Below are positions 378 to 50,713 of a stretch of DNA of 64,000 bases, piece after piece. The stretch's first letter is position 1. The number at the start of each line of letters is the position of its first letter. The notes below the pieces were generated by a model. It worked only from the letters and a program-made list of their open reading frames with translations, ran no database searches and was not told the origin of the DNA. The translations under genes and the position numbers were made by a program. Source of the DNA: Acidovorax sp. 69 (GTDB lineage: Bacteria; Pseudomonadota; Gammaproteobacteria; Burkholderiales; Burkholderiaceae_C); assembly GCF_002797445.1 (NCBI RefSeq), contig NZ_PGEP01000001.1:3906501-3970500 (forward strand). The letters are read 5' to 3'.

Positions 378-473
378 ACACACCAACCAGAGTGCCTGCG
401 GGAATGGCAACAAGGGGTTTGCAAAGCCCCGTTCCCCGTATTGACACCCTTCCATCCCGGAGATATCCCGCAC

Positions 474-1841: not shown

Positions 1842-1876
1842 GCCCCTTTTTCCTGATTCACTGAAGGACTGACAAC

Positions 1877-4775: not shown

Positions 4776-4808
4776 GGCCACGCCTTAGCCCAAGACAGAA
4801 GGAATCCG

Positions 4809-5746: not shown

Positions 5747-5763
5747 GAATACCTCGCTACCAA

Positions 5764-5813
5764 GAGTAGAAGCGTTCAGCGGCCACCGCCCGGAAATTGC
5801 TCTTGAAGCATGC
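5764..5813. repeat. Arm A of a split inverted repeat (partner at 9657-9737)
   Basis: Two blocks, CAAGAGTAGAAGCGTTCA and CCGGAAATTGCTCTTGAAGC, are the exact reverse complements of two blocks found in the opposite order at 9657-9737. Here they are about 12 bases apart; in the partner they are about 40 apart. The pair encloses the binding protein, both oxygenases and the VOC gene. It may be a dispersed repeat or the footprint of an inverted or mobile segment. Confidence 0.6.
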
Positions 5814-5984: not shown

Positions 5985-7013
5985 ATGCAACGCCGTTCCC
6001 TTATCCGCGCCACCGGCGCCGCCGCCCTGCTGTACGCCACACCCTTTGTGCGCGCCCAGGGCAATCTGCAGAAATTCAAGTTCAACCTGGGTTGGAAAAT
6101 CGAGGCCTCGGGCGCAGGTTTTTTGCTCGCGCAGCAACGTGGCTACTACAAGGACGCCGGGCTGGATGTGGCCGTCGACACGGGCAACGGCTCGGCATCG
6201 GCGATCAGTCTCGTGGCAGGTGGTGCGTATGACGTGGCATCGGCCGACCTCTCGACCATGATCGAGTTCAACACGGCCAACCCGCAGGCCAAGCTGGCGG
6301 CCGTGGCCATCCAGTACGACCTGAACCCCAATTCGGTCATGGTGCGCAAGGACGGCGCCATCAAGAAGCCCACCGACCTCGCGGGCAAGACCATCCTGGG
6401 CCAGCCCTTCAACGCCTCGCGCAAACTGTTTCCGGCCTTTGCCAAGGCGCAGGGCTTTGATGGCAGCACGGTGAAATGGGAGAACGTTGCGCCCGACATC
6501 GGCGACACGCGGTTCGTCAAAGGCGACTTCGATGCCGCTGCGTACTTCTTCTTTACCGGTCTGCTCAACCTGAAGGCGCGGGGTCTGGGACCCGATCAGA
6601 TCACGGTCTTCCGCTTTTCGGACTACGGCCTCAAGTCGTACGGCAACGGGCTGATCGCCAACGCCAAGAGCATGCAGGAAAACCCCGAGGCCATGAAGGC
6701 GTTCGTGAAAGCCACCACGCGCGGCTGGGTCGATGCGATTGCCGACCCGCGTGCAGGGGCTGCAGCCATCAAGGCGCGCGAGCCGCTGGCCAATGAAGAG
6801 ATCGAATTCGAGCGCCTGCAGCTCATCGTGGACGGCACGATGAAAACCGCTGAGACACGCGCCAACGGCTGGGGCGCTGCCACTGCCACACGCCTGCAGG
6901 CCACCATCGACGAGACCGTGGCGGCCTTTGGCCTCAAGAGCACTCTGGCGGTGGCTGACATCTGGACCGACCGCTTCCTGCCCACAGCGGCCGATCGCAA
7001 GCTCAAGGCCTGA
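5985..7013 (+). CDS. ABC transporter periplasmic substrate-binding protein (NMT1/SsuA-like)
   Basis: 342 residues. The N terminus MQRRSLIRATGAAALLY has a twin-arginine-like or Sec export signal ending near AQG, followed by a mature domain typical of taurine/nitrate/HMP-type binding proteins (NMT1/THI5-like). No permease or ATPase follows it. The nearest matching pair is at 16178-17946, behind a second binding protein, so the two may share a transporter. Other in-frame starts upstream (including an ATG at 5970) lack the compact signal peptide at the right distance. The gene sits directly before the 2-oxoglutarate oxygenase gene, suggesting that the imported compound is hydroxylated. Confidence 0.8.
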   Translation: MQRRSLIRATGAAALLYATPFVRAQGNLQKFKFNLGWKIEASGAGFLLAQQRGYYKDAGLDVAVDTGNGSASAISLVAGGAYDVASADLSTMIEFNTANPQAKLAAVAIQYDLNPNSVMVRKDGAIKKPTDLAGKTILGQPFNASRKLFPAFAKAQGFDGSTVKWENVAPDIGDTRFVKGDFDAAAYFFFTGLLNLKARGLGPDQITVFRFSDYGLKSYGNGLIANAKSMQENPEAMKAFVKATTRGWVDAIADPRAGAAAIKAREPLANEEIEFERLQLIVDGTMKTAETRANGWGAATATRLQATIDETVAAFGLKSTLAVADIWTDRFLPTAADRKLKA

Positions 7014-7026
7014 CCAGGGGATCGCC

Positions 7027-8025
7027 ATGGGCATCCCCCTCATCGACCTCAGCGGGGCGCTGCAGTCTGGTGCGCCCCACAGCCCGGCCGTAACTGCTGT
7101 GGCGACCCAGCTGCGCCAGGCCTGCATGGGCACTGGCTTCTTCTACGTGCTGAACCATGGCGTTCCAACAGAAGTCATCGCGCGCCAGTTTGCCCTGGCG
7201 CAGCAGTTCTTCGATCTGCCGCTGGCGGACAAAGAAGCCATCTCGCTGCACCGTTCGCCCTCCATGCGTGGCTACGAAAGCCTGGGTGGGCAGACGTTGG
7301 ACGCCAGCGCTCGCCCGGACCTCAAGGAAAGTTTTTACTGCGGTCTGGATTACGCGGCCGACCACCCCTATGTGCAGCGCGGCTACCACTCTTACGGCTG
7401 CAACCAGTGGCCCGAAGCGCTGCCCGACCTGGCCGTACACAGCCGCACCTACATCGCCGCCCTGCAGCAGTTGGCGCTGCGGCTGATGCAGTTGCTAGCG
7501 CTGTCCCTTCACCTTCCGGAAGACTTCTTTGACCACACGCACCAGAGTCCCATGCTCACCCTGCGCCTGCTGCGCTACCCGCCGCACCCCGAGGGCGCCG
7601 ATGCGTTGACCTTTGGCGCGGGCGAACACACCGACTGGGGCGCGATCACCCTGCTGGCGCAAGACCGCCACGGCGGGCTGGAGGTGAAGCTGCCCGATGG
7701 CGAATGGGCAGCGGCCACGCCGGTGGACGGAGCGCTGGTGGTGAACCTGGGTGACATGATCCCGCGCTGGACCAATGGGCTGTACCGCTCCAACCCGCAC
7801 CGCGTGCGCAATGTGCACAGTGGCGACGCACCACGCCACTCCATTCCGTTCTTCTACACGCCCGACTACGAAGCGCAGGTGGTGCCTGTGCCCACCTGCG
7901 TTCCCGCAGGCGAGGCACCGCGCTTTGAACCCTGCACCGTGGGCGAGCACTTGCAGGCGATGTACCGCAAGACCTACGGCATGGGGCACGCCACCACTTC
8001 GGCCAGCGCAGCGGTGATGGCATGA
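7027..8025 (+). CDS. 2-oxoglutarate/Fe(II)-dependent oxygenase, isopenicillin N synthase-like
   Basis: 332 residues. The N-terminal DIOX_N-type region (FYVLNHGV, QFFDLPL) is followed by the double-stranded beta-helix core. The iron triad is visible as HTD near residue 201 (GEHTDWGA) and the distal His in NPHRVRN near 257; the 2-oxoglutarate-binding Arg is in RHSIPFF. Members hydroxylate small molecules; thymine-7-hydroxylase of fungi belongs to this broad family. The start at 7027 follows the binding-protein stop by 13 bases, and the stop overlaps the VOC gene (ATGA). The substrate is unknown; the context of deaminases and a RutR-like regulator suggests a nucleobase-like heterocycle. Confidence 0.85.
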   Translation: MGIPLIDLSGALQSGAPHSPAVTAVATQLRQACMGTGFFYVLNHGVPTEVIARQFALAQQFFDLPLADKEAISLHRSPSMRGYESLGGQTLDASARPDLKESFYCGLDYAADHPYVQRGYHSYGCNQWPEALPDLAVHSRTYIAALQQLALRLMQLLALSLHLPEDFFDHTHQSPMLTLRLLRYPPHPEGADALTFGAGEHTDWGAITLLAQDRHGGLEVKLPDGEWAAATPVDGALVVNLGDMIPRWTNGLYRSNPHRVRNVHSGDAPRHSIPFFYTPDYEAQVVPVPTCVPAGEAPRFEPCTVGEHLQAMYRKTYGMGHATTSASAAVMA

Positions 8026-8438
8026 AGCTCTGGTTCAACTTGCTGTGCCGTGACATCGATGCACAACTGCAGTTTTATCAAACCCTGCTGCAGTTGCCCG
8101 AGGCTGCGGGTACACGCTCGGCCATCTACCGTGCGGTGGAGACAGAGCACTTTCAGCTCGGTTTCAACGCGCACGAGGCCTATGCCCTGCTGGGCGTTGC
8201 CGACCGACAACCCGACGCGGCGGTACGGCCACCGCGCAGCGTGACGGGCTACGCCACTTTCATGCTGGACACGGCGGATGCCGTGGAGGCGGCAGGGGTG
8301 AAGGTGACAGCCCTGGGAGGGCAGATCATCAAGCCGCCCTACGCCACCTACTACGGCCAGTGGCAGGCGGTGCTGGCCGACCCGGAGGACAACGTGTTCC
8401 GCGTCAGTGCCATGGGTGGGCCGCGCAACGCCGTGTGA
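8022..8438 (+). CDS. VOC-superfamily (glyoxalase/dioxygenase-fold) protein
   Basis: 138 residues, starting inside the stop of the oxygenase gene and so translationally coupled. The two beta-alpha-beta-beta-beta halves are recognisable: LLCRDIDAQLQFYQTLL, then FMLDTADAVEAAG and VLADPEDNVFRV. This is a single-domain vicinal-oxygen-chelate protein; members act as glyoxalases, ring-cleavage dioxygenases, isomerases or binding proteins. I infer that it acts on the product of the neighbouring oxygenase. No specific reaction can be assigned. Confidence 0.8.
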   Translation: MKLWFNLLCRDIDAQLQFYQTLLQLPEAAGTRSAIYRAVETEHFQLGFNAHEAYALLGVADRQPDAAVRPPRSVTGYATFMLDTADAVEAAGVKVTALGGQIIKPPYATYYGQWQAVLADPEDNVFRVSAMGGPRNAV

Positions 8439-8516
8439 AGCAGGCGCCCACCCGATCCGCAATCAGCCATCCAAAGCAATGACGAGGTCACCCAACGGCT
8501 ACCCCGTCCGCACACA

Positions 8517-9511
8517 TCAATACGCCTTGAAGTTGGCCGCCACCCGCTGGTTCAGGTAGGCGCCCGCGGCAATCGCCGGGTACTTCTTGCCGGGCCCTTC
8601 GATGATGGCGTCGCGGTTGGCTTGCGCAAAGAATGCCATGCTGTAGCGCGGACCCATGTACTCGCCCGGCAAAGGATTCTTCACGCGGTGAAAGTTGCTG
8701 GGCAGCTGGTCATCGCTCCAGCGCATCAGCATGTCGCCGATATTGCAGGTGATCGCCTGCTCGTCGGGCGTCACCGACGTCCAGGCCTGGCTGTCCATCT
8801 CCTTGCCGGGGCACACCTGCAGACCGCCCTGGCCCTGGCGCTGGAAGAGCAAGGTCAGGCAGTCAAAGTCGGTATGAGCCCCAGCGCGCCACAGGCCCAG
8901 GTGGGCCTGCTGCTCGGGGGCGTGGCAAAGTAGTGCAACAGGCGCAAGGTGCTTTGGTAGCTGGCCTGTGCAGGGTCGTGCGCGCGGGCAAAGAAGTCCT
9001 CGTCAAACCCCAGCTTCCATGCAAAACACGACAGCACCTGCATCGCCACCTGCCAGCACTGCCCCTCGAAGGCGAGCATGGTGGCCTGAAAGCCCGCCAG
9101 CTCCTCGTCGGTAGGCCACAGGCCATCCATGTGCGGGCGGGTGATCTGGTACGACTCCTTCTGGTCGGGCGTTCCGGTGGATGGCCGCACCTGGGCGCGG
9201 CTTTCCCAGCCCACGTTGAGCGCCTTCTTGAGCGAGTATTGCGCCTTCACGGCATCCGGCAGCGCAAAGAAGCGCTCGGTCATCGCAAAGGCGTTGCGCA
9301 CCTCGGCCAGGTCAATGCCATGGTTCACGATCTGGAAGAAGCCCACATCGACGGCGGCATTCCATAGCTGGTCGGCAATCTCGGTCTTGCGCTGTGCAAA
9401 GTGTGTGAGGTCGATGCGGCGGATCTCGCGGCTCGCGGTTTCCGAACCCATCGCGCCCATGCGCGTTTCTTTTTGCAGCTCGGCGAGGTCATACGTGGCG
9501 GTGCTGGTCAT
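8517..9511 (-). pseudogene. Second IPNS-like 2-oxoglutarate/Fe(II) oxygenase, frameshifted
   Basis: Two minus-strand frames join into one oxygenase of about 331 residues. The first (from ATG 9511, behind AGGAGA) ends out of frame after LLHYFATPP. The second continues with the iron motif AHTDFDC and ends with the distal His/Arg region NFHRVKN and RYSMAFF. Adding one C to the C tract (G tract 8916-8920 on the plus strand) restores a continuous protein. All catalytic residues are present, so this is either a recent frameshift or a homopolymer sequencing error. It converges with the VOC gene and diverges from the deaminase at 9942. Confidence 0.8.
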
Positions 9512-9618
9512 GCGGTTCTCCTGAAGACAAGTGGAAGGAAGAAAGGCCCTCCCGCCTGGCGCTTCAAGAGTGGATGGCACCGCTTGCACAGGCAGGGTGC
9601 CGTCACATCTTGAAGCCA

Positions 9619-9653
9619 CGGTGTGCACGGGCGCACACCGCTGTGCGCACAGC
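9619..9653. repeat. Two adjacent palindromes upstream of the oxygenase/deaminase pair
   Basis: CGGTGTGC and GCACACCG pair perfectly across six bases (9619-9640), and GCTGTGCGCACAGC (9640-9653) is a perfect 14-base palindrome. They may be regulator sites or transcript hairpins. Confidence 0.5.
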
Positions 9654-9656
9654 GGG

Positions 9657-9737
9657 CTTCAAGAGCAATTTCCGGCTGGCGTCGTTTCATGCGGGGTGGC
9701 ATGTTGGCTACGCAGTGAACGCTTCTACTCTTGCCCT
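9657..9737. repeat. Arm B of the split inverted repeat (partner at 5764-5813)
   Basis: GCTTCAAGAGCAATTTCCGG and TGAACGCTTCTACTCTTG are exact reverse complements of the two blocks at 5764-5813, but about 40 rather than 12 bases apart. Conservation of both blocks with a variable centre suggests a structured dispersed element rather than chance. Confidence 0.6.
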
Positions 9738-9744
9738 GGATGAT

Positions 9745-9759
9745 GCAAGAACAATGCCC
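9745..9759 (-). promoter_or_regulatory. Sigma-54-like element facing the second oxygenase gene
   Basis: On the minus strand GGGCAT-N5-TTGC fits the -24/-12 pattern with correct GG/GC spacing. It would give a leader of more than 200 bases before the ATG at 9511. This is a pattern match only. Confidence 0.3.
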
Positions 9760-9820
9760 AAGGCACCCGCGAGTGCACCCTGCAAGGCAGGCAGTGGGCG
9801 CATCAAAGCCATGCATACAT

Positions 9821-9851
9821 GTCACTGTTTGTGACTGGCATGCCAAATGCA
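9821..9851 (+). promoter_or_regulatory. Inverted repeat abutting a sigma-54-like element upstream of the deaminase
   Basis: GTCAC-TGTTT-GTGAC (9821-9835) is a perfect 5-base inverted repeat. It is immediately followed by TGGCATG-CCAA-ATGC (9836-9850), which has the -24 GG and -12 GC at the correct spacing and one mismatch to TTGC. The implied start of transcription is about 80 bases before the deaminase ATG. An operator directly against a promoter is plausible but unproven. Confidence 0.4.
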
Positions 9852-9941
9852 TAGCGCAACCCATCACAGCGGCGGGCTCGCAGACAGCCCGGCGTTGCAC
9901 GACGGCCAAGCACCCCACCACACCACAAACGGAGACAACCC

Positions 9942-10469
9942 ATGCACGCACTCATGTCCACATCCCCCGCCCCGCTTGAAGAACCTGTGCTTTTGGATGA
10001 CACCGATGGCACCTATTTGCGCCAAGCCATTGCCTGGTCGTGCACAGCGCGCGCGCGCGGCAACCGGCCCTTTGGTGCGGTGGTGATCGGCGCCGACGGC
10101 AAGCTGCTGGCCGAGGCCTATTGCAACACCACCGAAACCGGCGACTGCACCGGCCACGCCGAGACCAACGCCGTGCGCCAGCTCAGCCCCCGCATGGACC
10201 GCAACACGCTGGCCAAGGCCACGCTCTATTCGTCGGCAGAGCCTTGTGTGATGTGTGCAGGAGCCATCTTCTGGTCTGGCATCGGGCGCGTGGTGTTTGG
10301 CATTGATGCTGTGCGCCTGCGCGTTTTTCGGGGTGAGCGCGCCGAACAACGCGACGCCGAGCTGTCGTGCCGCGACGTGTTTGCGGCCTCGCCCCACGCC
10401 ATTGAATGCATCGGCCCGACGCTGGTGGAAGAAGCCAGCGCACCCCATGTCGGGTTCTGGAAAACCTGA
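9942..10469 (+). CDS. Zinc-dependent nucleobase-type deaminase (CMP/dCMP deaminase fold)
   Basis: 175 residues. The zinc site is complete: HAE near residue 72 (GHAETNAVR) and PCVMC near 101 (SSAEPCVMCAGAI). This is the cytidine/deoxycytidylate deaminase fold in its nucleobase or guanine deaminase-like branch. A GGAGACA ribosome site precedes the ATG. It is separate from tRNA adenosine deaminase TadA, which would not sit in a catabolic cluster. With the CodA-like hydrolase at 12329 it implies two deamination steps and release of ammonia. The substrate is unassigned. Confidence 0.82.
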   Translation: MHALMSTSPAPLEEPVLLDDTDGTYLRQAIAWSCTARARGNRPFGAVVIGADGKLLAEAYCNTTETGDCTGHAETNAVRQLSPRMDRNTLAKATLYSSAEPCVMCAGAIFWSGIGRVVFGIDAVRLRVFRGERAEQRDAELSCRDVFAASPHAIECIGPTLVEEASAPHVGFWKT

Positions 10470-10516
10470 AACCCGCCAGTGCAGGCAGAATCTGCGCCGC
10501 CCCTCACGCATCACCC

Positions 10517-11191
10517 ATGCCCCGCACCACCGTCATGACTGAATCCGACGCCGAAGCCGCCTCCGGCGCCCTGCTCAGCCGCGCCAAACAAGGCCGTGAG
10601 CGCATCCTGGGGGCCATCCGCGAGGCGGCCATTGCCGAGTTCAGCCGCCATGGCTTCAAGGGCGCATCCACCAAGGCCATTGCCGAGCGCGCGGGCCTGA
10701 CCAAGCCCCAGCTGCATTACTACATCAGCAGCAAGGAAGAGCTGTATGAAGAGCTGCTGTATTCGGTGCTCAACGGATGGTCGGGCGCTTTCATCTTTGA
10801 CAACAACAGCGACGACCCCAAGAAGGTGCTGAGCAGCTACGTGCGCAAGAAACTCGACTACGCACTGGACAACCCAGGCCTGTCGCGCATCTTCACCACC
10901 GAGGTGCTGGGCGGCGGCCGCAACCTGGGCAGATACTGGCCCGTGGCCGTCAAGTCCACCCAACAGAAGGTGGACCTGATCAACCGCTGGATTGCCGAAG
11001 GCCGCATGCGCAAGGTGGACGCCAAGGTGCTGCTCATGCAGATCTGGGGCATGACGCAGCACTACGCAGACTATGGCGTGCAAGTGCACATCATGCTGGG
11101 CCTGGCGCCCGACGAAGCCATCGACCGCGAGCCCGTCGTGCGTGAACTCACCAGCTTTGTGCTGCTGGGCTGCGGCCTCGCACCAGACTAA
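10517..11191 (+). CDS. TetR-family regulator, RutR-like
   Basis: 224 residues. The N-terminal helix-turn-helix (EFSRHGFKGASTKAIAERAG, then LHYYISSKEEL) lies at about 40-75. The C-terminal half resembles the RutR ligand domain, including IWGMTQHYADYGVQV, close to the equivalent segment of E. coli RutR, which binds uracil/thymine and controls pyrimidine use. A RutR-type half-site pair occurs just upstream of the next gene (11339-11367), so I infer that this protein regulates that promoter in response to a pyrimidine-like ligand. An alternative start at 10535 is possible because no strong ribosome site is visible. Confidence 0.82.
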   Translation: MPRTTVMTESDAEAASGALLSRAKQGRERILGAIREAAIAEFSRHGFKGASTKAIAERAGLTKPQLHYYISSKEELYEELLYSVLNGWSGAFIFDNNSDDPKKVLSSYVRKKLDYALDNPGLSRIFTTEVLGGGRNLGRYWPVAVKSTQQKVDLINRWIAEGRMRKVDAKVLLMQIWGMTQHYADYGVQVHIMLGLAPDEAIDREPVVRELTSFVLLGCGLAPD

Positions 11192-11317
11192 AGCCCCGCG
11201 CACATTTCTGGGCGGCCCCCGGATGCTGCGGGGCCAATACCGGGCGATTTGCACCAGCACGCGGCGCTGATGGGCCCCGTTGATCCATCACAAAGACGTT
11301 TTACCGATTTTTGTGGC

Positions 11318-11333
11318 TGGCACAGCCTTTGCA
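11318..11333 (+). promoter_or_regulatory. Near-consensus sigma-54 promoter
   Basis: CTGGCAC-N5-TTGCA matches the -24/-12 consensus (TGGCAC, five bases, TTGCW) at every key base. Transcription would begin near 11344, about 27 bases before the ferredoxin ATG. An NtrC-type half-site TGCACC lies at 11250-11255, but no full dyad is visible. The promoter implies an enhancer-binding activator, most simply nitrogen control by NtrC. Confidence 0.65.
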
Positions 11334-11338
11334 ACAGT

Positions 11339-11367
11339 TTGACCAATCGATCAAATCACATGGTCAA
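11339..11367. promoter_or_regulatory. RutR-type operator half-sites overlapping the transcription start
   Basis: TTGACCA (11339-11345) and TGGTCAA (11361-11367) are perfect inverted half-sites identical to those of the E. coli RutR consensus TTGACCAnnTGGTCAA, but spaced 15 bases apart rather than 2. The left half also pairs with CGATCAA at the canonical spacing (5 of 7 matches). The site lies between the sigma-54 promoter and the ATG, where a repressor would block initiation or clearance. The RutR-like gene is immediately upstream. Confidence 0.6.
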
Positions 11368-11370
11368 ACA

Positions 11371-11682
11371 ATGCAGACAGCCCCTGACACAGCCACCACA
11401 GCCGAGACTGCCAGCGCGGAACACCGGTTCGAGCTGATCCTGCAGCGCAGCCAGATGCGCCTGCCCGTTGCACCTGGCGAGAGCATCGCCGACGTCTTGC
11501 AGCTCGCTGGCGTGGCGCTGGAGACGCTGTGCGAGCAGGGCATGTGCGGCACCTGCGTGACCCGCTGGCTGGACGGCGAGCCCGACCACCGCGACAGCTG
11601 TCTGAGCGCCGACGAACAGCGCACCCACGTGGCGGTGTGCTGCGCACGTTGCCACAGCCCCACGCTCACGCTCGACCTCTAG
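11371..11682 (+). CDS. Stand-alone plant-type [2Fe-2S] ferredoxin (phthalate dioxygenase reductase-like domain)
   Basis: 103 residues. The cluster motif CEQGMCGTC lies near residues 55-63, and EPDHRDSCL with a later Cys follows. This is the pattern of the C-terminal ferredoxin domain of phthalate-dioxygenase-type reductases, here as a free protein without the FMN and NAD domains. The next gene encodes a flavodoxin-fold oxidoreductase that might reduce it. No Rieske oxygenase or P450 partner lies in the window, so the acceptor is unknown. It is the first gene behind the sigma-54/RutR-type control region. Confidence 0.82.
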   Translation: MQTAPDTATTAETASAEHRFELILQRSQMRLPVAPGESIADVLQLAGVALETLCEQGMCGTCVTRWLDGEPDHRDSCLSADEQRTHVAVCCARCHSPTLTLDL

Positions 11683-11717
11683 GCCCACCCACACCACCCA
11701 CCCGAAGGACACCCGCC

Positions 11718-12305
11718 ATGCGCATCCTCGTGATCTATTGCCACCCGGTAGAGACCAGCTACAACGCCGCCCTGCATACCGAGGTGGTGCAGCAGTTGCG
11801 CGGCGCGGGCCATGAGGTGGACGACTGCGACCTGTACGCCGAGGGCTTCAACCCCGTGATGACTCGCGAGGAACGCCTGGGCTACCACGAGGTACCGAGC
11901 AACCAATTGCCTGTGCAGGGCTATGTAGACCGCCTGCTGAAGGCCGAGGCCGTGGTGTTCTGCTTTCCCACCTGGTGCTTTGGCATGCCGGCCATGCTCA
12001 AGGGCTTCTTCGACCGGGTGCTGATGCCCGGCGTGGCCTTCGACATCAGCGACCCGCACAACGTCAAGCCCTCGCTCACGCACATCAAGCGCATCTCGGC
12101 TGTGGTCACCTATGGCCGCCCGCGCTGGACAGCGCTGTTCATGGGCGACCCTCCCCGCAAGTCCATCACCCGCTACATGCGCCTGCTCACGGGTGGCAAG
12201 GCGCGGGTGGACTACCACGCCTACTACCACATGAACGTGGCCACGCCACCCCGTCTGGCGGACTTCAAGGCCCGCGTGGGGCAGGCCATGGCCCGCTTTG
12301 CGTAA
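11718..12305 (+). CDS. NAD(P)H-dependent oxidoreductase, flavodoxin-like (NQO/MdaB type)
   Basis: 195 residues. The N terminus ILVIYCHPVETSYNAAL is the phosphate-binding loop of NAD(P)H:quinone-type flavoproteins, and FPTWCFGMPAMLKGFFDRV is the flavin-site segment of that family. It probably carries FMN or FAD in the cytoplasm. The position between a ferredoxin and an amidohydrolase suggests that it supplies electrons to the former or reduces a heterocyclic intermediate. It is followed after 23 bases by the amidohydrolase gene. Confidence 0.82.
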   Translation: MRILVIYCHPVETSYNAALHTEVVQQLRGAGHEVDDCDLYAEGFNPVMTREERLGYHEVPSNQLPVQGYVDRLLKAEAVVFCFPTWCFGMPAMLKGFFDRVLMPGVAFDISDPHNVKPSLTHIKRISAVVTYGRPRWTALFMGDPPRKSITRYMRLLTGGKARVDYHAYYHMNVATPPRLADFKARVGQAMARFA

Positions 12306-12328
12306 GACCACGTTCTAAGGACCACGGC

Positions 12329-13639
12329 ATGCACGCATCCAACACGCCCGACCACATCCTGCGCGCCCGGCTGCCGCGCTGGCTTCTACCCACGCAATGG
12401 CCCCAACAGGGCCACCAACCCGCGCTGGCCGACCTGCATCTGGCCCAGGGCCGCGTGGTGCACGTGCAGCCCCACGGCACGGCACCCGATCCGCAAGGCA
12501 CCCGGTGGGACGTGGCCGGTGCCCTGGTTCTGCCCGGCCTGGTGGACGCCCACACACACCTCGACAAAGCCTTCACCCTGCCGCGCATGGGTGTCGTCCA
12601 ACCCGGCCTGCTGGGCGCCATCGACGCGATGATGGTAGACCGCTTGGGATGGACCGAGGCCGACATCCACGCCCGCGCCAGCCGCGCGCTGCAATGGGCC
12701 TGCGAGGCCGGCACAGTGCACCTGCGCACCCACTGCGACTGGTGGGAGCCTGAGGCCCAGCCCTTGGCCTGGAACGTATTGCGCGCACTCGCCCACGACT
12801 GGGCCGACCGCATCACGTTGGAGCGCGTGAGCCTGATCCCCCTGCACCTGTACGCCAACCGCAGCACCGCCATGCGCCTGGCTGCCACCGTGGCTGACAG
12901 CGGCGGCGGCGCCCTGCTGGGTGGCTTCGTGCATTCCACCAACTGGGACCCACAGGCCTTGCGCCATTTGTTCGAGGCCGCGCAACACCACGGCCTGAAC
13001 GTGGACCTGCATGTGGACGAAGAGCTGCACCCCGGCGCCAAAGGACTGGCCACCACGGCCGCGCTGCTCAAGGAGCTGAGGTTCGAAGGCCATGTGGTCT
13101 GCGGCCACACCTGCGCCCTGGCTGCGCAGGACGAGGCGACCGCCCTGGCAACGCTGGACGCTGTGGCGCAAAGCCCCATCACGCTGGTCACGCTACCCAT
13201 CACCAACCTGCTGCTGCAGGACGCCACCACTGGCCGCACACCCCGCCAGCGTGGCCTCACCCTGGTGAAGGAAGCGCGCGCACGCGACATTCCCGTGCTG
13301 GTGGCCAGCGACAACGTGCAAGACCCGTTCTGCCCGGTGGGCAGCTTTGACCCGCTGGAGGCCCTGGCCACCGGCGTGCTGGCGGCGCAGCTCGACGCGC
13401 CGTTCGACCAGTGGAGCGAATCACTGTGCCGAGCCGACTGGCTGCGCACGGGCCCTGCGGCACTGCCCCTGCAGCCCGGCACTGTGGCCGACCTGCTGGT
13501 CTTCACCCAAGCCGACCACTGGGGCTTTCCGTCGCGTGCACAAGGCCGCGTGGTGCTGCGCCAGGGCCGCGTCGCCAGCGGCCATGCACCCGCCGCCTGG
13601 CATGTGCCCACACCCCAGTTGACAAGGAGCCCGGCATGA
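12329..13639 (+). CDS. CodA-like metal-dependent amidohydrolase (cytosine deaminase family)
   Basis: 436 residues; the ATG at 12329 follows CTAAGGA, and upstream in-frame starts lie inside the reductase gene. The first metal motif HTHLDKAF lies near residue 74. HVDEE and CGHTC supply later ligands, and ASDNVQDPFCPVGS near 325 is the active-site Asp segment typical of cytosine deaminase and related aminohydrolases such as N-isopropylammelide hydrolase. It likely deaminates or opens a nitrogen heterocycle. The stop overlaps the RidA gene start (ATGA). The true substrate may differ from cytosine. Confidence 0.83.
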   Translation: MHASNTPDHILRARLPRWLLPTQWPQQGHQPALADLHLAQGRVVHVQPHGTAPDPQGTRWDVAGALVLPGLVDAHTHLDKAFTLPRMGVVQPGLLGAIDAMMVDRLGWTEADIHARASRALQWACEAGTVHLRTHCDWWEPEAQPLAWNVLRALAHDWADRITLERVSLIPLHLYANRSTAMRLAATVADSGGGALLGGFVHSTNWDPQALRHLFEAAQHHGLNVDLHVDEELHPGAKGLATTAALLKELRFEGHVVCGHTCALAAQDEATALATLDAVAQSPITLVTLPITNLLLQDATTGRTPRQRGLTLVKEARARDIPVLVASDNVQDPFCPVGSFDPLEALATGVLAAQLDAPFDQWSESLCRADWLRTGPAALPLQPGTVADLLVFTQADHWGFPSRAQGRVVLRQGRVASGHAPAAWHVPTPQLTRSPA

Positions 13640-14124
13640 CCGCCACACCATCCACCACTGGCACCACTGGCACCGCGCCAGGCATTGCCCAGCCCCTGGC
13701 CCGCTACGCCGCCTGGCGCCGCGCGGGCGACTTCATTTACCTCAGCGGCGTCATCGCCGTGGACCCTGCGGCCAGCCGCATCGTGCGCGGCTATGCCGAC
13801 ATTCCTGACGAAGCCGCCACGCTGATCGGCCGCACCGGCGAGTTCAGCAGCGACATCAAAGAGGGCCCCATCCTCGCGCAGAGCTGGTACGTGCTCGACC
13901 GTATTCGTCTGACCATGGAAGCCGCGGGCGGCCAGATGTCGGACGTGTTCAAGCTCGTGCAGTACTTCAAGAACCTGGACCACTTCCCCCAGTACAGCCG
14001 CGTGCGCAAGCTGTTCTTCCCGGGCGAGCCGCCGGCCTCCACCGTGGTGGAGGTCTCAGGCATGTTGCCGACCCCCGACATTCTCATCGAGGTAGAGGCC
14101 ACCGCCTATCTCCCTCTGCACTAA
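13636..14124 (+). CDS. RidA/YjgF/UK114-family protein
   Basis: 162 residues, starting inside the amidohydrolase stop. The C-terminal segment STVVEVSGMLPTPDILIEVE carries the family pattern. RidA proteins hydrolyse reactive enamines/imines; the family member RutC acts in pyrimidine breakdown. Together with the RutR-like regulator this is a second parallel to the rut system, although RutA, RutB and RutD are absent. The trimer active-site Arg of canonical RidA is not obvious in the tail, so an enamine deaminase role is only probable. Confidence 0.8.
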   Translation: MTATPSTTGTTGTAPGIAQPLARYAAWRRAGDFIYLSGVIAVDPAASRIVRGYADIPDEAATLIGRTGEFSSDIKEGPILAQSWYVLDRIRLTMEAAGGQMSDVFKLVQYFKNLDHFPQYSRVRKLFFPGEPPASTVVEVSGMLPTPDILIEVEATAYLPLH

Positions 14125-14153
14125 CGCGTCCCCTTACACGAAAGACCCCGCCC

Positions 14154-15017
14154 ATGCTGCACGGCTACAACCCGCCCCACCGCTACCTGCCCTACCTGAG
14201 CTGGACCGAGATCGTGGACCTGCCCGACAAGGAGAACACCGTCATCGTTCTGCCCACGGGCGCCACAGAGCAGCACGGCCCCCACCTGCCCTGCGCGGTG
14301 GACACGGTCATCAGCGCCGGGGTGGTGGGCCATGCGCTGGCCCGCCTGCCAGCGGATGTGCCAGCGTTTGCGATGGCGCCCATCACCTACGGCAAGTCCG
14401 AGGAGCACCTGCACTTCCCTGGCACTGTCACCCTCAGTGGCGAAACCCTGCTGGCCACCATGAATGAGGTGGGCGAGTCGGTCTACCGCGCAGGCTTTCG
14501 CAAGTTGCTGTTCGTCAACGGCCACGGCGGCCAGCCGCAGGTGATGGAGATGTGCGCGCGCGAGCTGCGCCTGCGCCATGGCGACTTCATCGTGGTGCCC
14601 AGCTTCACCTGGCGCGTACCGCACGTGGCGGGCAAGTACCTGTCGGAGCAGGAAAAGAAACTGGCCATGCACGCGGGCCACGCCGAGACCGCGCTGATGC
14701 TGGCCTTGGCCCCAGACACCGTGCACATGGAGCGCGCGGTGGTCAACTACCCGCCCGTATTCGACTCGCCCCTGCTCTCGCCCGACGGCCGCCCCGCCTG
14801 CGCCTGGAGCGCACGCGACTTCGGGCCCAGCGGCATCATCGGCGACCCGCTGCCCGCCACCGCCGAGCAGGGCCACGCCATCCTCGATTCGCTGGCCGTG
14901 AGCTGGGCCGCCGCCATCACCGAGCTGCACAAGCTTCAATGGGCCGCACGCCCCGAGCCCACCTGGGGCCGCGCCAACCACACCGGCCATGTGGAGCAGT
15001 CCAGCGCCCTGGCTTGA
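14154..15017 (+). CDS. Creatininase-family amidohydrolase
   Basis: 287 residues, the normal family length. LPTGATEQHGPHLPCAVDT near residues 30-48 holds the metal-binding E-x-HG-x-HLP-x3-D pattern, and NGHGGQPQ near 122 is the second conserved motif. Members open cyclic amides (creatinine, FAPy-type deformylation, other lactams). In this cluster it could open the ring after hydroxylation and deamination. It lies 29 bases after the RidA gene and before the ABC importer. Confidence 0.85.
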   Translation: MLHGYNPPHRYLPYLSWTEIVDLPDKENTVIVLPTGATEQHGPHLPCAVDTVISAGVVGHALARLPADVPAFAMAPITYGKSEEHLHFPGTVTLSGETLLATMNEVGESVYRAGFRKLLFVNGHGGQPQVMEMCARELRLRHGDFIVVPSFTWRVPHVAGKYLSEQEKKLAMHAGHAETALMLALAPDTVHMERAVVNYPPVFDSPLLSPDGRPACAWSARDFGPSGIIGDPLPATAEQGHAILDSLAVSWAAAITELHKLQWAARPEPTWGRANHTGHVEQSSALA

Positions 15018-15102
15018 AACCTGCAAACGCAGCCACATCCCCTTTCCCTTCTCCCCTCGTTGCCCCTTCGTTCACCCTCCACCACCCTACCGGAGTAAAG
15101 CC

Positions 15103-16107
15103 ATGATGAAGACCGCTTCCCGCCTTTCCAAACTTGGTGCAGCCGCGCTGCTCGCTGTTGGTGCGCTCGCCACCACATCGGGCACCGCCCAGGCGCAAGA
15201 AAAGTTCACCTACATGACCAACTGGTACGCGCAGGCCGAGCACGGCGGCTTCTACCAGGCGGTGGCCACGGGTCTGTACAAGAAGTACGGCCTCGATGTG
15301 TCCATCAAAATGGGTGGCCCGCAGGTCAACATCGTGCAGATGATGGCCGCAGGCCAGGCTGAGTGTGTGATGGGATCGAGCGACCTGCAGATGATCCAGA
15401 TGCGCGAGGGCGGCGTGCCCGTGGTCAACGTGGCCGCAGTGTTCCAGAAAGACCCGCAGGTACTCATCGCGCATGAGGATGTGAAGAAGTTCGAAGACCT
15501 CAAGGGCAAGACCATTCTCATTGCCTCGTCGGCCCAGCGCGGCTACTGGCCCTGGCTCAAGGCCAAGTACGGTTTCACCGATTCGCAGACACGCCCTTAC
15601 ACCTTCAACATCCAGCCCTTCGTGGCCGACAAGAACACAGCGCAACAGGGCTACCTGACGTCGGAGCCGTTCGCCATCGCCAAGGCCGGCGTCAAGGCCA
15701 ACACACTGATGTTCAGCGACCAGGGCTACCCCGCCTACGCCACCACCATCTCGTGCATGGACAAGACGGTGAAGGACCGCAGCGCCGCCGTGGCCTCGTT
15801 CGTGAAGGCGTCGATGGAAGGCTGGAAGAGCTACCTGGCCGACCCGGCCCCTGCCAACGCCCTCATCAAGAAGGACAACCCCAACATGACCGATGAGCAA
15901 CTGGCCTACAGCGTGGCCAAGCTCAAGGAAATGGGCATGGCCACGGGCGGTGACGCAGCCGCCATGGGCATCGGCATCATGACCGACGCACGCGCCAAGG
16001 CCAGCTACGACTTCCTGGTCGAGTCCAAGCTCATCGACCCGGCCAAGGTGAAGCTGACCGAGACCTACACCACGTCGTTCGTCAAAGACCTCAAAGTCCT
16101 GCCCTGA
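15103..16107 (+). CDS. ABC transporter periplasmic substrate-binding protein (NMT1/THI5-like)
   Basis: 334 residues. A Sec signal peptide (about residues 1-31, ending AQAQ) precedes FTYMTNWYAQAEHGGFYQA, a pattern shared by NMT1/ThiY/RibY-type binding proteins that carry pyrimidine, riboflavin-like or other heterocyclic ligands. A CGGAG ribosome site supports ATG 15103 (15106 is also possible). It heads a complete importer with 16178-17946, which fits uptake of a nitrogen heterocycle processed by the upstream enzymes. Confidence 0.86.
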   Translation: MMKTASRLSKLGAAALLAVGALATTSGTAQAQEKFTYMTNWYAQAEHGGFYQAVATGLYKKYGLDVSIKMGGPQVNIVQMMAAGQAECVMGSSDLQMIQMREGGVPVVNVAAVFQKDPQVLIAHEDVKKFEDLKGKTILIASSAQRGYWPWLKAKYGFTDSQTRPYTFNIQPFVADKNTAQQGYLTSEPFAIAKAGVKANTLMFSDQGYPAYATTISCMDKTVKDRSAAVASFVKASMEGWKSYLADPAPANALIKKDNPNMTDEQLAYSVAKLKEMGMATGGDAAAMGIGIMTDARAKASYDFLVESKLIDPAKVKLTETYTTSFVKDLKVLP

Positions 16108-16177
16108 GCCTGACAGCCCTGAAACAGCGGCCGGTGCGCTCCCTTGCCAGCCCGGCCGCATCCATCGAAAGGCGACC

Positions 16178-17020
16178 ATGACATCCCCCACTGAATCTCC
16201 GCCGCTGGCACACGCCCCGATGCCCGCCACCTATTCCACACCCGCCGTGGAGGTACTCTCTGCCGAAAAGACCTACCCCAATGGCACCCAGGCCCTGCTG
16301 CCTGTGGACCTGACCATTGAGGAAGGCGAATTCGTCACGCTGCTCGGCCCCTCGGGCTGCGGCAAGAGCACGCTGCTGAAAATGGTCGCGGGCCTGCTGG
16401 AGCCCACCGACGGCCGCCTGCACCTGTGGCGCAAGCCGGTGGCGCAATTGGAAGAAAGCGGCAAGAAGATGGCATTTGTCTTCCAGTCGCCCACGCTCAT
16501 GCCCTGGGCCAGTGTGCAGACCAATGTGCGCCTGCCGCTGGACCTGGCCGGTGTGCCCCGCGCCGAGGCCGATGCCCGCGTGACCGAGGCGCTGGCGCTG
16601 GTGGGTCTGTCCAAGTTCGCCAGCGCCCTGCCCCGCGCGCTGTCCGGCGGCATGCAGATGCGCGTGTCGATCGCGCGTGGCCTGGTCACCCAACCCGACT
16701 TGCTGCTGATGGACGAGCCCTTTGGCGCGCTCGACGAGATCACGCGCCACAAGCTCGACGCCGACCTGCTGGACCTGTGGCGCAAGAAGAAGCTCACAGT
16801 GATTTTTGTGACCCACTCGATCCACGAGGCGGTGTTCCTCTCCAGCCGCGTGGTCATGATGGCCGCGCGCCCCGGCCGCGTGGTCGAAGAGTTCCGCATT
16901 GATGCGCCCTACCCCCGCACCGCCGACTTCATGGTGTCGCCCGAATTCAGCCGCTACGCCAAGCGGCTGCAAGACAGCCTGCTGCGCGCCAGCGTGGACA
17001 CCGAGGAGACCGTGGCATGA
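16178..17020 (+). CDS. ABC transporter ATP-binding protein (nitrate/taurine/HMP-type)
   Basis: 280 residues. Walker A GPSGCGKST, Q-loop FVFQSPTLMPW, signature LSGGMQMR, Walker B LLLMDEP and the H-loop VTHSIHEA are all present, so it is an intact NTPase. It drives import through the permease, whose start overlaps its stop (ATGA). Confidence 0.9.
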   Translation: MTSPTESPPLAHAPMPATYSTPAVEVLSAEKTYPNGTQALLPVDLTIEEGEFVTLLGPSGCGKSTLLKMVAGLLEPTDGRLHLWRKPVAQLEESGKKMAFVFQSPTLMPWASVQTNVRLPLDLAGVPRAEADARVTEALALVGLSKFASALPRALSGGMQMRVSIARGLVTQPDLLLMDEPFGALDEITRHKLDADLLDLWRKKKLTVIFVTHSIHEAVFLSSRVVMMAARPGRVVEEFRIDAPYPRTADFMVSPEFSRYAKRLQDSLLRASVDTEETVA

Positions 17021-17946
17021 GCACCCCCTTCCCCTCCGCTCCGATGGCATCACCGGTAGCTGCCTCCAGCACCACAACCACAACCGCACCACGCACTGCC
17101 TCGCCGCAGGCGGCATCCGCAAAAGCCGCGACGAAGGCAGCGCCCAAACGCCCACCGTTGATGGCGCAACCCCGCGTACAGCGCGTGGTGTACCCGCTGC
17201 TTGTTGGCGTGGTGCTGATTGCGCTGTGGCAAGGTCTGGTCACAGCGCTGGAACTGCCGCCCTACTTGGTGCCATCGCCCATCCTGATGATGAAGACGCT
17301 GTTCACCGACTGGGCGGCACTGGGCGGCTCGCTCTGGGTCACCGTCAAGATCACGGTGCTGGCATTTCTGGTGGCCACGGTGGCCGGGGTGCTGATCTCG
17401 TTCTTGTTCGTGCAGAGCAAACGCATCGAGACCGCTCTGTTCCCCTACGCCGTGCTTCTGCAGGTCACGCCCATCGTGGCCGTGGCGCCGCTCATCATCA
17501 TCTGGGTGAAGGACCCGATGGCCTCCATGGTGATCTGCGCTGCGCTAGTGGCGCTGTTCCCCATCATCAGCAACACCACGCTGGGCTTGCGCAGCGTGGA
17601 GCCGGACCTGCAAAGCTACTTCAAGCTCAACCGCGCCACCCGCATGCAGACCCTGCTGCGCCTGCGCATTCCGAGTGCGCTGCCCTACTTCTTCGGCGGG
17701 CTGCGCATCTCCAGCGGTCTGGCACTCATCGGCGCCGTGGTCGCCGAGTTCGTGGCCGGCACCGGCGGCCAGGGCGCTGGGCTGGCGTACCAGATCCTGC
17801 AGGCAGGCTTTCAGCTGAATATCCCGCGCATGTTCGCTGCGCTGCTGCTGATCTCGCTGACGGGTGTGGCGCTGTTCGCCCTGATGGCCTGGCTCACAAG
17901 AGCTGCACTAGGCAGCTGGCACGCGAGCGAAAACTCGCACGACTGA
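17017..17946 (+). CDS. ABC transporter permease (BPD type)
   Basis: 309 residues. A low-complexity Thr/Ala-rich cytoplasmic N terminus of about 45 residues precedes roughly six membrane segments. The EAA-like loop appears as YFKLNRATRMQTLLRLRIPS. The start overlaps the ATPase stop. It forms the membrane channel for the binding proteins at 15103 and possibly 5985. Confidence 0.9.
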   Translation: MSTPFPSAPMASPVAASSTTTTTAPRTASPQAASAKAATKAAPKRPPLMAQPRVQRVVYPLLVGVVLIALWQGLVTALELPPYLVPSPILMMKTLFTDWAALGGSLWVTVKITVLAFLVATVAGVLISFLFVQSKRIETALFPYAVLLQVTPIVAVAPLIIIWVKDPMASMVICAALVALFPIISNTTLGLRSVEPDLQSYFKLNRATRMQTLLRLRIPSALPYFFGGLRISSGLALIGAVVAEFVAGTGGQGAGLAYQILQAGFQLNIPRMFAALLLISLTGVALFALMAWLTRAALGSWHASENSHD

Positions 17947-18035
17947 CCCGCACCGCCACCATTTTTTTATACCGCGCCCGCGTGGTGGGGCCGCGCCTTG
18001 CCCCACCACCCGCTGCACCGACAGGAGAGACAGAC

Positions 18036-19427
18036 ATGACCACCGCCACCCCCGCCCACCAACTGCCCGAGCAGCTGCCCGACCTGGACTGGATTGCTGA
18101 CCCGCTGCGCGTGGGCCGCCTGTCGCAGGACTTTGCCTGGTTCAGCCCCGTGCTCAAGCGCGACCTGGCCGGTAAACGCGGCGATGTGGCCGTGCGCCCG
18201 CGCACGGAAAACGAAATCCGCCAGGTGGTGGCCGCCTGTGCCAGTGCGGGCATCCCCCTCACCGTGCGCGGCAGCGGCACCGGCAACTACGGCCAGAGCA
18301 CGCCACTGCACGGCGGCGTCATCCTGGACCTGTCGGGCTACAACGGCTTTGGCTGGGTGCGTGGCGGCGTGGGCCGCGCGCAAGCCGGCATTCGCCTGTC
18401 GGACTTCGACGCACAGGCCAAACCCCTGGGGCAGGAGCTGCGCTGGCTGCCCTCCACCTACCGCAGCGCCACGCTGGGCGGGCTGTTTGGCGGCGGCTTT
18501 GGCGGCGCGGGCTCCATCAACCATGGTCCGCTGGCCGCGCCCGGCAACGTGCTGGCGGTGCGCGCCATGACGGTGGAGCCCGAGCCCCAGATCATCGAGC
18601 TGCGCGGCCCCGAGGCCATGCTGCTGCACCACACCTACGGCACCAACGGCATCGTGCTGGAGCTGGAGGTGGCACTGACCCACGCCGTGGAGTGGACTGA
18701 ATGCATCGCCACCTTTGAGCAGTTCGATGCTGCACTGGAGTTTGCCGACCGCTTTGGCAGCGCGCCGGGGCTAGAGAAAAAAGAGGTGTGTTTTCTGGCC
18801 GCGCCCATTCCCCAATACTTCACCAGCCTGGCCGAGCATTTTCCCGCCAACCAGCATGCCGTGCTACTGCTGGTGGCACCGCACTCCGAGGCTGGCATGC
18901 GCGACATGGTAGCCCAGCACGGCGGCCAGGTCACCTACCGCAAGACCGCCGATGAGGTGGCCAGCAGCCACAAGACGCTGCTCGAATACACCTGGAACCA
19001 CACCACCTTGCACGCACTGAAAGTGGACAAGGGCCTGACCTATATCCAGAGCGGCTTCAACCCCATGCACCGCCTCAAGCAAGTGAAGGCGCTGGAGGCC
19101 GCGCTAAAGGGCGAGGTGATGATGCATCTGGAGTTTTTGCGCACCAAGGAAGGCGCCTTCAACTGCAGCGGACTGCAGATCATCCGCTACACCACCGAAG
19201 AGCGCCTGAACCAGATCATGCAGATCTACCGAGACCACGGCGTGCAGATCAACAACCCGCACGTGTTCATCGTGGAAGACGGCAAACAGAACCACCTGGA
19301 CCCCGCCGTAGTGACCATGAAGCGCCGCTTTGACCCTCAAGGCCTGCTCAACCCCGGCAAGCTGCGCAGCTGGTACGCGGCCGAACCATCGGCCCCCACA
19401 CAGACACCGGTACGCCAAACAGCGTAG
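18036..19427 (+). CDS. FAD-linked oxidase/dehydrogenase (glycolate oxidase/VAO-type)
   Basis: 463 residues; the ATG at 18036 follows AGGAGAGACAG. The PP-loop FAD domain is visible: VAVRPRTENEIRQVVAACA, then RGSGTGNYGQ, and GGLFGGGFGGAGS near residue 150. The C-terminal half matches FAD_lactate-oxidase-type proteins and ends with FDPQGLLNPGKL. It likely oxidises a hydroxy or amine intermediate of the pathway. It is the last gene of the cluster. Confidence 0.83.
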   Translation: MTTATPAHQLPEQLPDLDWIADPLRVGRLSQDFAWFSPVLKRDLAGKRGDVAVRPRTENEIRQVVAACASAGIPLTVRGSGTGNYGQSTPLHGGVILDLSGYNGFGWVRGGVGRAQAGIRLSDFDAQAKPLGQELRWLPSTYRSATLGGLFGGGFGGAGSINHGPLAAPGNVLAVRAMTVEPEPQIIELRGPEAMLLHHTYGTNGIVLELEVALTHAVEWTECIATFEQFDAALEFADRFGSAPGLEKKEVCFLAAPIPQYFTSLAEHFPANQHAVLLLVAPHSEAGMRDMVAQHGGQVTYRKTADEVASSHKTLLEYTWNHTTLHALKVDKGLTYIQSGFNPMHRLKQVKALEAALKGEVMMHLEFLRTKEGAFNCSGLQIIRYTTEERLNQIMQIYRDHGVQINNPHVFIVEDGKQNHLDPAVVTMKRRFDPQGLLNPGKLRSWYAAEPSAPTQTPVRQTA

Positions 19428-19510: not shown

Positions 19511-20347
19511 ATGCCCTGGCACGCCCGCCTGCAGCTCGACTACACGGCAGAACACAACGCCCGCACCGTGGCCCGCTATGAGCACAACGGGCCGCTGCGC
19601 ATCCTGCAAAGCCTGTACCCCGAGGGCGACGCCATCTGCCACAACGTGCTGGTGCACCCGCCCGGCGGCCTGGTGGGCGGCGACACACTGGACATCACCA
19701 CTACCGTGGGGCCCGGCGCGCATGGCCTGGTCACCACGCCCGGCGCCACGCGCTTCTACCGCTCCACCGGCCCGCTGGCGCTGCAGCGCAGCCACCTCAC
19801 CCTGGCCGAGGGCGCGCGCCTGGAATGGCTGCCGCTGGAGGCGCTTTGCTACAGCGCCTGCCACGCCGAAAACCACCTCACGCTGAACCTGGCCCCCGGC
19901 GCCGAGTGCATCGCCTGGGACGTGACCGCCCTGGGCCTGCCCCACGCAGGCCAACCGTTTGAACAAGGCCGCTTCACCCAGCACCTGGAAGTGCCCGGCC
20001 TGTGGCTGGAGCGCGGCGTGATCGACGCCGCCGACCACCGGCTGCTGAACAGCCCGCTGGGCCTGGCGGGCCACCGCTGCATGGCCAGCCTCTTCTTTGC
20101 CACCGGCTCTCTGCTTGACCGCGCACGCCGTGATGCCGCTCTGGACGCCGCTCGTGCTGTGATGGATCAACACCCCCAGGTCAAAGCCACCGCAGGCGCC
20201 ACCAGCCCCAACGACCGCATGGTGGTGGTGCGCGTGCTCGCGCCGCAGGTGGAGCCTGCGATGAAGCTGCTCAAGGCCGTGCGGGTGGCTTGGCGGGAGG
20301 TGTTGTGGGAACTGGAAGGCGAAGCGCCCAGGATTTGGGCCATGTAG
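19511..20347 (+). CDS. ureD: Urease accessory protein UreD, separated from the urease operon
   Basis: 278 residues, normal for UreD/UreH. The N terminus has WHARLQLDY, and VHPPGGLVGGDTLDI and HGLVTTPGATRFYRS are strong family motifs. UreD binds apo-urease and, with UreF and UreG, forms the nickel-delivery complex. It usually sits directly before ureA; here it is about 29 kb away, followed by an unrelated minus-strand regulator. No other ureD is seen in the window, so this copy must serve the operon at 49689. Confidence 0.93.
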   Translation: MPWHARLQLDYTAEHNARTVARYEHNGPLRILQSLYPEGDAICHNVLVHPPGGLVGGDTLDITTTVGPGAHGLVTTPGATRFYRSTGPLALQRSHLTLAEGARLEWLPLEALCYSACHAENHLTLNLAPGAECIAWDVTALGLPHAGQPFEQGRFTQHLEVPGLWLERGVIDAADHRLLNSPLGLAGHRCMASLFFATGSLLDRARRDAALDAARAVMDQHPQVKATAGATSPNDRMVVVRVLAPQVEPAMKLLKAVRVAWREVLWELEGEAPRIWAM

Positions 20348-40634: not shown

Positions 40635-40655
40635 CCCCGACGCACCGGAGCCCCC

Positions 40656-49991: not shown

Positions 49992-50024
49992 CCTCTTTTT
50001 CCCCTTTCTCTCTGTGGAGCCCCC

Positions 50025-50642: not shown

Positions 50643-50682
50643 TGGCAGTGATCCCAACGATGCATGCCAAGCTGACAAGCCT

Positions 50683-50713
50683 CTCTCCCCGACCCTCTCC
50701 AGCCAGGGGAGAG
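50683..50713. repeat. Hairpin element between ureJ and ureB
   Basis: CTCTCCCC (50683-50690) pairs with GGGGAGAG (50706-50713) across 15 bases, with a further CTCTCC in the loop. This is a short intergenic hairpin of a type seen scattered in proteobacterial genomes. Confidence 0.6.

Follow-up and report, generated by a model that had tools for sequence, protein, structure and literature searches.

Which compounds are handled by the genes at positions 5985 to 19427 of the 64,000-nt stretch of Acidovorax sp. 69 DNA analysed here (the window; assembly GCF_002797445.1, contig NZ_PGEP01000001.1)? A first-pass annotation, made from the letters alone, had proposed that about 14 genes form one uncharacterised pathway for the scavenging of nitrogen heterocycles. 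Using Pfam and NCBIfam models for the gene types at 5.7-19.4 kb, we found all the types it had named about where it had placed them; the second 2-oxoglutarate (2OG) oxygenase gene is frameshifted, however, and the cluster consists of two linked modules, A and B, not of a single unit, since the minus-strand oxygenase gene OXY2 interrupts the set and the two modules also occur apart in related genomes. We give about an even chance to the reading that the cluster is a nitrogen-scavenging island for bicyclic heterocycles of the 2-amino-4-oxo type (purines, probably pteridines), for which we infer both the substrate and the order of the reactions. The main clue beyond the earlier gene list is a pair of xanthine riboswitches that this list did not include; UreD, which follows the last cluster gene, is a further addition.

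Two modules and their xanthine riboswitches

The two riboswitches (RF03054; Table 1) face each other at a distance of 3.85 kb, with SBP1, OXY1, the VOC gene and OXY2 in between, and the next genes 3′ of them are SBP1 and OXY2, as in relatives. According to Yu and Breaker (2020; PMC7373994, here and below in the passages covered), members of this class bind xanthine or urate and repress expression; they reject pyrimidine nucleobases, do not bind xanthine or urate with one methyl group on N1, N3 or N7, and are unresponsive to thiamin-related compounds. Thiamin salvage via NMT1/ThiY proteins was rejected on the latter ground and on the weakness of the matches of SBP2 to 3ix1 and THI5 (SBP2 has five PDB matches, all weak, including 4nmy and the pyrimidine-binding 3ix1). 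A guanidine riboswitch was also considered and rejected: the scan of the whole window at the Rfam gathering thresholds gave four matches in total, none of a guanidine class.

Module A (SBP1, the 2OG oxygenases, the deaminase and the riboswitches) is the purine-oxidation locus published, in the passages covered, by Yu and Breaker (PMC7373994). Among 200 sampled genomes of the family, 39 carry RF03054; the 38 other than that of the window yielded 39 loci with 64 riboswitches, and 22 of these loci have a back-to-back pair of riboswitches no more than 400 bases apart. The gene next downstream of the 64 riboswitches is OXY2 in 17 cases, binding protein f2 in 16, a Rieske oxygenase in 15, SBP1 in eight and SBP2 in four, the remaining four being single occurrences. 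Purine genes lie near some of these 39 loci (an OHCU decarboxylase fusion at six, PuuE at four, UreD at 15). One locus, L045, is arranged like the window and has, in addition, a third riboswitch before its deaminase gene; at a relaxed threshold, the window showed none in this place.

OXY2 was found in 18 of the 39 riboswitch loci and a Rieske gene (Rieske plus VanA_C domains) in 19, with both in none and neither in two (Fisher test, 3.4e-9, which ignores phylogeny); we read them as two unrelated oxygenases sharing one job. In the alignment with three relatives, the OXY2 gene of the window is split by a length difference of one base near 8918, upstream of the region in which relatives carry the HTD metal-ligand motif. 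It is one open frame in all 16 related loci where it was found, and the frameshift may be a sequencing error. No NCBIfam family matched OXY1 or the OXY2 relative in locus L073. The best PDB match of the zinc deaminase (DEAM) is the guanine deaminase 1wkq, in a near tie with TadA variants.

The genome is complete (4.97 Mb), with Acidovorax as its closest relatives in our searches. Outside the cluster, 19-39 kb upstream of the first riboswitch, lie genes of the route from xanthine to allantoate, whose identities were confirmed with models: XdhA, XdhB, PuuD, XdhC, HIU hydrolase, PuuE and an OHCU decarboxylase fused to an allantoate-amidohydrolase-like domain. The canonical set from xanthine through urate to allantoin is complete in the genome (XDH, urate oxidase, HIU hydrolase, OHCU decarboxylase, allantoinase). 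Genes for a xanthine permease and for another ABC importer of the NMT1 type lie nearer to the cluster than these, and UrtA and urease genes follow downstream, inside the window. The upstream purine genes and the downstream urease therefore place the cluster within a purine-to-urea region. The import of a pyrimidine- or purine-like compound had been suggested beforehand; it is the purine side that gains from the two riboswitches, the adjacent pathway from XDH to allantoate and the urease.

Table 1. Features of the cluster and of its downstream flank (positions in the window)
Feature	Position	Strand	Model or match
Xanthine (NMT1) riboswitch, upstream of SBP1	5759..5807	+	Rfam RF03054, 53.5 bits (gathering 36)
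SBP1, NMT1/THI5-like ABC binding protein, no ATPase/permease of its own in the cluster	5985..7013	+	Pfam PF09084, 134 bits
OXY1, IPNS-like 2OG-Fe(II) oxygenase	7027..8025	+	Pfam DIOX_N and 2OG-FeII_Oxy
VOC/glyoxalase-fold protein	8022..8438	+	Pfam PF18029, PF00903 (weak)
OXY2, second IPNS-like oxygenase, frameshifted (open pieces 8855-9511 and 8517-8852)	8517..9511	-	Pfam on both pieces
Xanthine (NMT1) riboswitch, upstream of OXY2	9658..9735	-	Rfam RF03054, 47.0 bits (gathering 36)
DEAM, zinc deaminase, TadA/guanine-deaminase fold (dCMP/cytidine-type)	9942..10469	+	Pfam PF00383
TetR regulator, RutR/YcdC-type C-terminal domain	10517..11191	+	Pfam PF08362
Inverted repeat GTTTGACCA / TGGTCAAAC, candidate TetR operator	11337..11369	.	
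2Fe-2S ferredoxin (Fer2)	11371..11682	+	Pfam PF00111
FLAV, Flavodoxin_2/NAD(P)H oxidoreductase-like	11718..12305	+	Pfam PF02525
CODA, cytosine-deaminase-like amidohydrolase, candidate pterin/guanine-type deaminase	12329..13639	+	NCBIfam NF005759; PDB cytosine deaminases
RidA-family protein	13636..14124	+	Pfam PF01042
CREAT, creatininase-family hydrolase	14154..15017	+	Pfam PF02633, 242 bits (cut-off 31.3)
SBP2, NMT1-type binding protein	15106..16107	+	Pfam PF09084
ABC importer ATPase	16178..17020	+	Pfam PF00005
ABC importer permease	17017..17946	+	Pfam PF00528
FADOX, VAO-type FAD enzyme (FAD_binding_4), related to PDB 6V42	18036..19427	+	
UreD, urease accessory protein, directly after the last cluster gene	19511..20347	+	Pfam PF01774
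Remaining urease genes	49689-55746		Pfam/NCBIfam

Several other features of the window and its genome lie outside the cluster. A probable tetronate (threonate/erythronate-type) catabolic set at 441-5606, which looks separate, comprises a GntP-type permease, a dehydrogenase, a 3-oxo-tetronate kinase, an aldolase and an isomerase, of which the kinase was tested with a model (NF043035, 642 bits) and the others were judged by eye. A large subunit resembling molybdenum hydroxylases and a 2Fe-2S subunit are encoded at 38493-41117 (weak XdhB match, 68 bits), and a 5′ ureB antisense small RNA (Rfam, 99.6 bits) lies at 51315-51604 on the minus strand, opposite the urease alpha gene. The genome has a second creatininase-family gene elsewhere (G000:C1:728126-728833).

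Conservation of module B and its association with the riboswitches

The first-pass annotation had named scattering of the genes over related genomes as a finding that would refute it; a neighbourhood search showed strong linkage instead, and the sets recur in distant taxa. With FADOX as query, 71 homologous loci were obtained, most of them from Comamonadaceae and some ending at a contig end, in which neighbours were scored at 40% identity and 40% coverage. The permease was found in 70 of them, SBP2 and the ATPase in 67 each, CREAT in 65, the flavoprotein in 62 and the TetR gene in 57; less frequent neighbours are RidA (49), CODA (48), the zinc deaminase (34), the ferredoxin (25), UreD (21), OXY2 (16) and OXY1 (4). 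The order flavoprotein-CREAT-SBP2-ATPase-permease-FADOX is kept in 61 of the 65 loci with at least 7.5 kb of upstream sequence. The core is therefore tight, CODA and RidA are frequent companions, and genes of module A lie close by in some loci only. (Some locus counts rest on families formed by single-linkage clustering, with a threshold of 45% identity, of genes predicted by an in-house caller; the loci extend to about 10 kb or to the end of a contig.)

Module B is reshuffled in alpha- and gammaproteobacteria. Ten annotated loci with FADOX from a plasmid collection (Comamonadaceae, Klebsiella, Pantoea, two from Agrobacterium, Rhizobium, Ruegeria, Roseateles, Palleronia and Haematobacter) vary in gene order, with CREAT, CODA, RidA and the ABC importer present in nine each; in the Klebsiella and Pantoea loci, PDR/VanB-type reductases replace the ferredoxin. 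Sixteen further loci, mostly lower-identity FADOX copies in genomes of the family, have CREAT and the ABC permease in 13 cases each, CODA in ten and RidA in nine. Some genomes carry more than one set of the module B type, including whole paralogous copies in one genome. Across the phylum, FADOX relatives, close or distant, occur in 22 of 299 sampled genomes, 18 of which entered a survey of the cassette in loci of 4.3 kb. Rhizobium sp. T136 (L154, 19743-23722) has another nitrogen-heterocycle set next after the cassette, which consists of an ABC importer of the BMP type, hydrolases of the isochorismatase family and a ring-opening amidohydrolase. In Ruegeria sp. TM1040 (L156, 7220-11389), genes for a TauD-type dioxygenase and a glutamine-amidotransferase-like protein belong to the FADOX set, in which an NMT1-type importer was not found.

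CODA scores 322 bits on the cytosine deaminase model NF005759 (cut-off 403) and far lower on the other cytosine deaminase models, and it is 36% identical to the Rhizobium neighbour of FADOX. A CODA relative (54% identity) is encoded on the atrazine plasmid pADP-1 (L155; NC_004956.1, 92490-93821), with the genes of an ABC importer next to it and atzD, the cyanuric acid gene, in the vicinity. CREAT reaches 102 bits on the model for true creatininase, TIGR04448 (cut-off 235), and scores higher on the MftE model (137 bits, cut-off 172). The closest solved relative of FADOX is PDB 6V42, titled a folate-catabolism flavin oxygenase, which has the same fold and can be aligned over the full length; an AlphaFold model fixed the family of FADOX, not its substrate, through a match list that leaves room for other families. 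We found no paper naming 6V42 or 6V43 in a literature search. In a tree built with 16 module B loci chosen by hand out of the 71, the 6V42 clade includes proteins of Rhizobium, Agrobacterium and Palleronia that have the same partner genes as module B. Two FADOX-type genes of different clades lie close together in each of three loci: L065 (at 16370 and 17803), L166 and L167.

The inverted repeat ahead of the ferredoxin gene is the single TTGACC-N12..20-GGTCAA site in the window. Such a site occurs in the gap between the TetR gene and the ferredoxin or flavoprotein gene in 31 of 51 loci; the 71 loci, 1.35 Mb in total, contain 34 of them. The half-site of the repeat resembles the RutR box.

Linkage between the two modules was measured in the same 200 genomes of the family. 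The riboswitch is present in 17 of 20 genomes with a close FADOX and in 22 of 180 without one; by genus, the figures are 11 of 14 and 21 of 127 (Fisher test, 2.2e-11 by genome and 3.9e-6 by genus, ignoring phylogeny). A close FADOX is defined here by a best identity of 58% or more, which retained 20 of 28 matching genomes, the other eight being counted as without. Among the module B genomes drawn from the 71 loci, 47 of the 49 searched have the riboswitch somewhere. In Ramlibacter-type loci it immediately follows module B, and after it come another binding protein of the SBP2 type, two Rieske genes and a gene of the PRK12393 type. In Klebsiella it precedes the genes for a binding protein, for an amidohydrolase of the PRK12393 type and for OXY2, and a LysR gene separates this group from module B.

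A proposed pathway and its alternatives

In the pathway that we propose, SBP1 would capture a compound outside the cell and pass it to the single ABC importer of module B, which we presume the modules to share. The zinc deaminase would remove the amino group, thereby turning a guanine-type ring into a xanthine-type one, and the IPNS-like 2OG oxygenases would hydroxylate or demethylate a purine to give xanthine or urate, while the two riboswitches would turn the module A genes off when either is plentiful. Oxygenases producing xanthine or urate would explain an OFF switch for exactly those products, and the failure of the riboswitch to bind their monomethylated forms (PMC7373994, passages covered) fits the demethylation of modified purines. 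Under the RutR-like TetR regulator, SBP2 and the importer of module B would take up a related ring compound of the guanine or pterin type, which CODA would deaminate. FADOX would oxygenate the ring, with electrons presumably supplied at some step by the flavoprotein and the ferredoxin, the creatininase-like CREAT would open the weakened cyclic amide, and RidA would clear the imine. The products could then enter XDH, PuuD, HIU hydrolase, PuuE and allantoate hydrolysis and, finally, urease, all encoded in the same region. The broad scheme suggested from the letters, in which a nitrogen heterocycle is imported, hydroxylated, deaminated and opened, is still the most economical reading.

Several observations weigh against this pathway. 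XDH is already encoded in the genome, so that an oxygenase acting on xanthine itself is not needed and simple xanthine oxidation is a less necessary role for OXY1 and OXY2; OXY2, moreover, is broken in this genome. An OFF switch on a set for uptake and breakdown is odd unless xanthine or urate is the product. The riboswitch is absent from three of the 20 genomes with module B and from five of six distant loci scanned, in most Variovorax loci no gene of module A lies within 10 kb of module B, and the genes of module B are linked to one another far more closely than those of module A are to them. The FADOX clade (22 rows) is separate from the 6V42 clade (4 rows), with support of 100 for each, and the function of 6V42 and 6V43 is taken here from the PDB title.

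An alternative is that module B is purely a cassette for the degradation of pterin or folate, with CODA as pterin deaminase and FADOX as pterin oxygenase, and that the purine neighbourhood is incidental. The title of 6V42, the recurrence of the partner genes around its clade and the many Variovorax loci with module B alone speak for it, as does the degradation of folate by Variovorax sp. F1, where the gene of the pterin deaminase used has an "endoribonuclease" gene after it, in the manner of CODA and RidA (PMC9513972, passages covered). The association of FADOX with the xanthine riboswitch across genomes, their adjacency in the Klebsiella and Ramlibacter-type loci and the full support for a separate FADOX clade argue in the other direction, and CODA is likened to the tested pterin deaminases (Arad3529 and the F1 enzyme) by description, not by sequence; we consider this explanation unlikely. 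A Rut-like variant for the use of uracil, thymine or cytosine, suggested by the RutR-type regulator domain, RidA, the CodA-like enzyme and the operator-like repeat, is very unlikely: the TetR protein scores 130 bits on the RutR model (cut-off 368) and RidA 46 bits on the RutC model (cut-off 169), the best match to RutA in the genome reaches 58 bits (cut-off 498.3), and riboswitches that reject pyrimidine nucleobases are present (PMC7373994, passages covered).

The degradation of creatinine or hydantoins would account for a creatininase-family enzyme next to a CodA-like one; given the scores of CREAT on the creatininase and MftE models, it is extremely improbable, and no creatinase or sarcosine oxidase was noticed among the called genes (no genome search was made for them). 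Finally, the genes could be neighbours without a shared pathway, in keeping with the separation of modules A and B in some genomes, which we regard as highly improbable in view of the order kept in 61 of 65 loci, the reshuffled but complete sets in distant taxa and the whole paralogous copies within one genome.

Beyond the nitrogen-scavenging island preferred here, a wider reading is conceivable, which we hold tentatively and judge rather doubtful. Module B would then be a general cassette for dismantling bicyclic nitrogen heterocycles, in which a flavin oxygenase activates the ring, an enzyme of the creatininase fold opens it and RidA clears the imine. The cassette would occur throughout alpha-, beta- and gammaproteobacteria and, within one genome, as several paralogs that differ in substrate. 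IPNS-like and Rieske oxygenases beside the riboswitch would be interchangeable and make xanthine or urate from modified, e.g., methylated, purines; an OFF switch responding to xanthine and rejecting its methylated forms would thereby be accounted for. The cassette is widespread and its parts carry generic family names in the records examined, so a single solved substrate of module B would assign a function to many genes in soil, plant-associated and enteric bacteria.

Comparison with known systems

The claim that the gene set matches no known pathway proved half right: the part with the riboswitch and the NMT1-, IPNS- and tadA-type genes is of a kind already published (PMC7373994, passages covered), and FADOX, in module B, has a relative of solved structure. 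Neither the module B cassette nor its combination with module A was found described in the open literature; most subscription journals lie outside this coverage, and a description may be in print elsewhere.

The parallel to the rut pathway drawn in the first-pass annotation turned out to be weak. The cluster shares with rut a regulator of the RutR type, RidA and the logic of import and ring opening, whereas its proteins miss the cut-offs of all Rut models tested (RutR, RutC, RutA); the lack of RutA it had remarked on holds genome-wide at that model's cut-off, and neither RutB nor RutD was seen among the cluster genes (no genome search was made for these two). The folate degradation of Variovorax, by carboxypeptidase G and a pterin deaminase (PMC9513972, passages covered), comes from the same bacterial family and has a CodA-like deaminase gene followed by one of the RidA type, whereas no carboxypeptidase G was noted in the cluster.

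Closest are the xanthine riboswitch loci of Yu and Breaker (PMC7373994), which have the same riboswitch class and the same downstream types (NMT1, pcbC/IPNS-like, tadA-like). The passages covered list hutI-, PDR- and PRK12393-type neighbours and do not describe a cassette of FAD oxidase, creatininase, RidA and ABC importer. They leave open the role of the dioxygenases under riboswitch control and why a xanthine OFF switch guards them, a question that the strict alternation of OXY2 and the Rieske gene at the same place makes directly testable. The same passages liken these dioxygenases to hpxD/hpxE. The window's oxygenases are IPNS-like 2OG enzymes and no Rieske gene lies in the cluster, which sets it apart from hpxDE, the system for hypoxanthine and xanthine oxidation in Klebsiella (cited in PMC7373994), HpxD and HpxE being known here by description; in other riboswitch loci, it is a Rieske oxygenase that occupies the place of OXY2.

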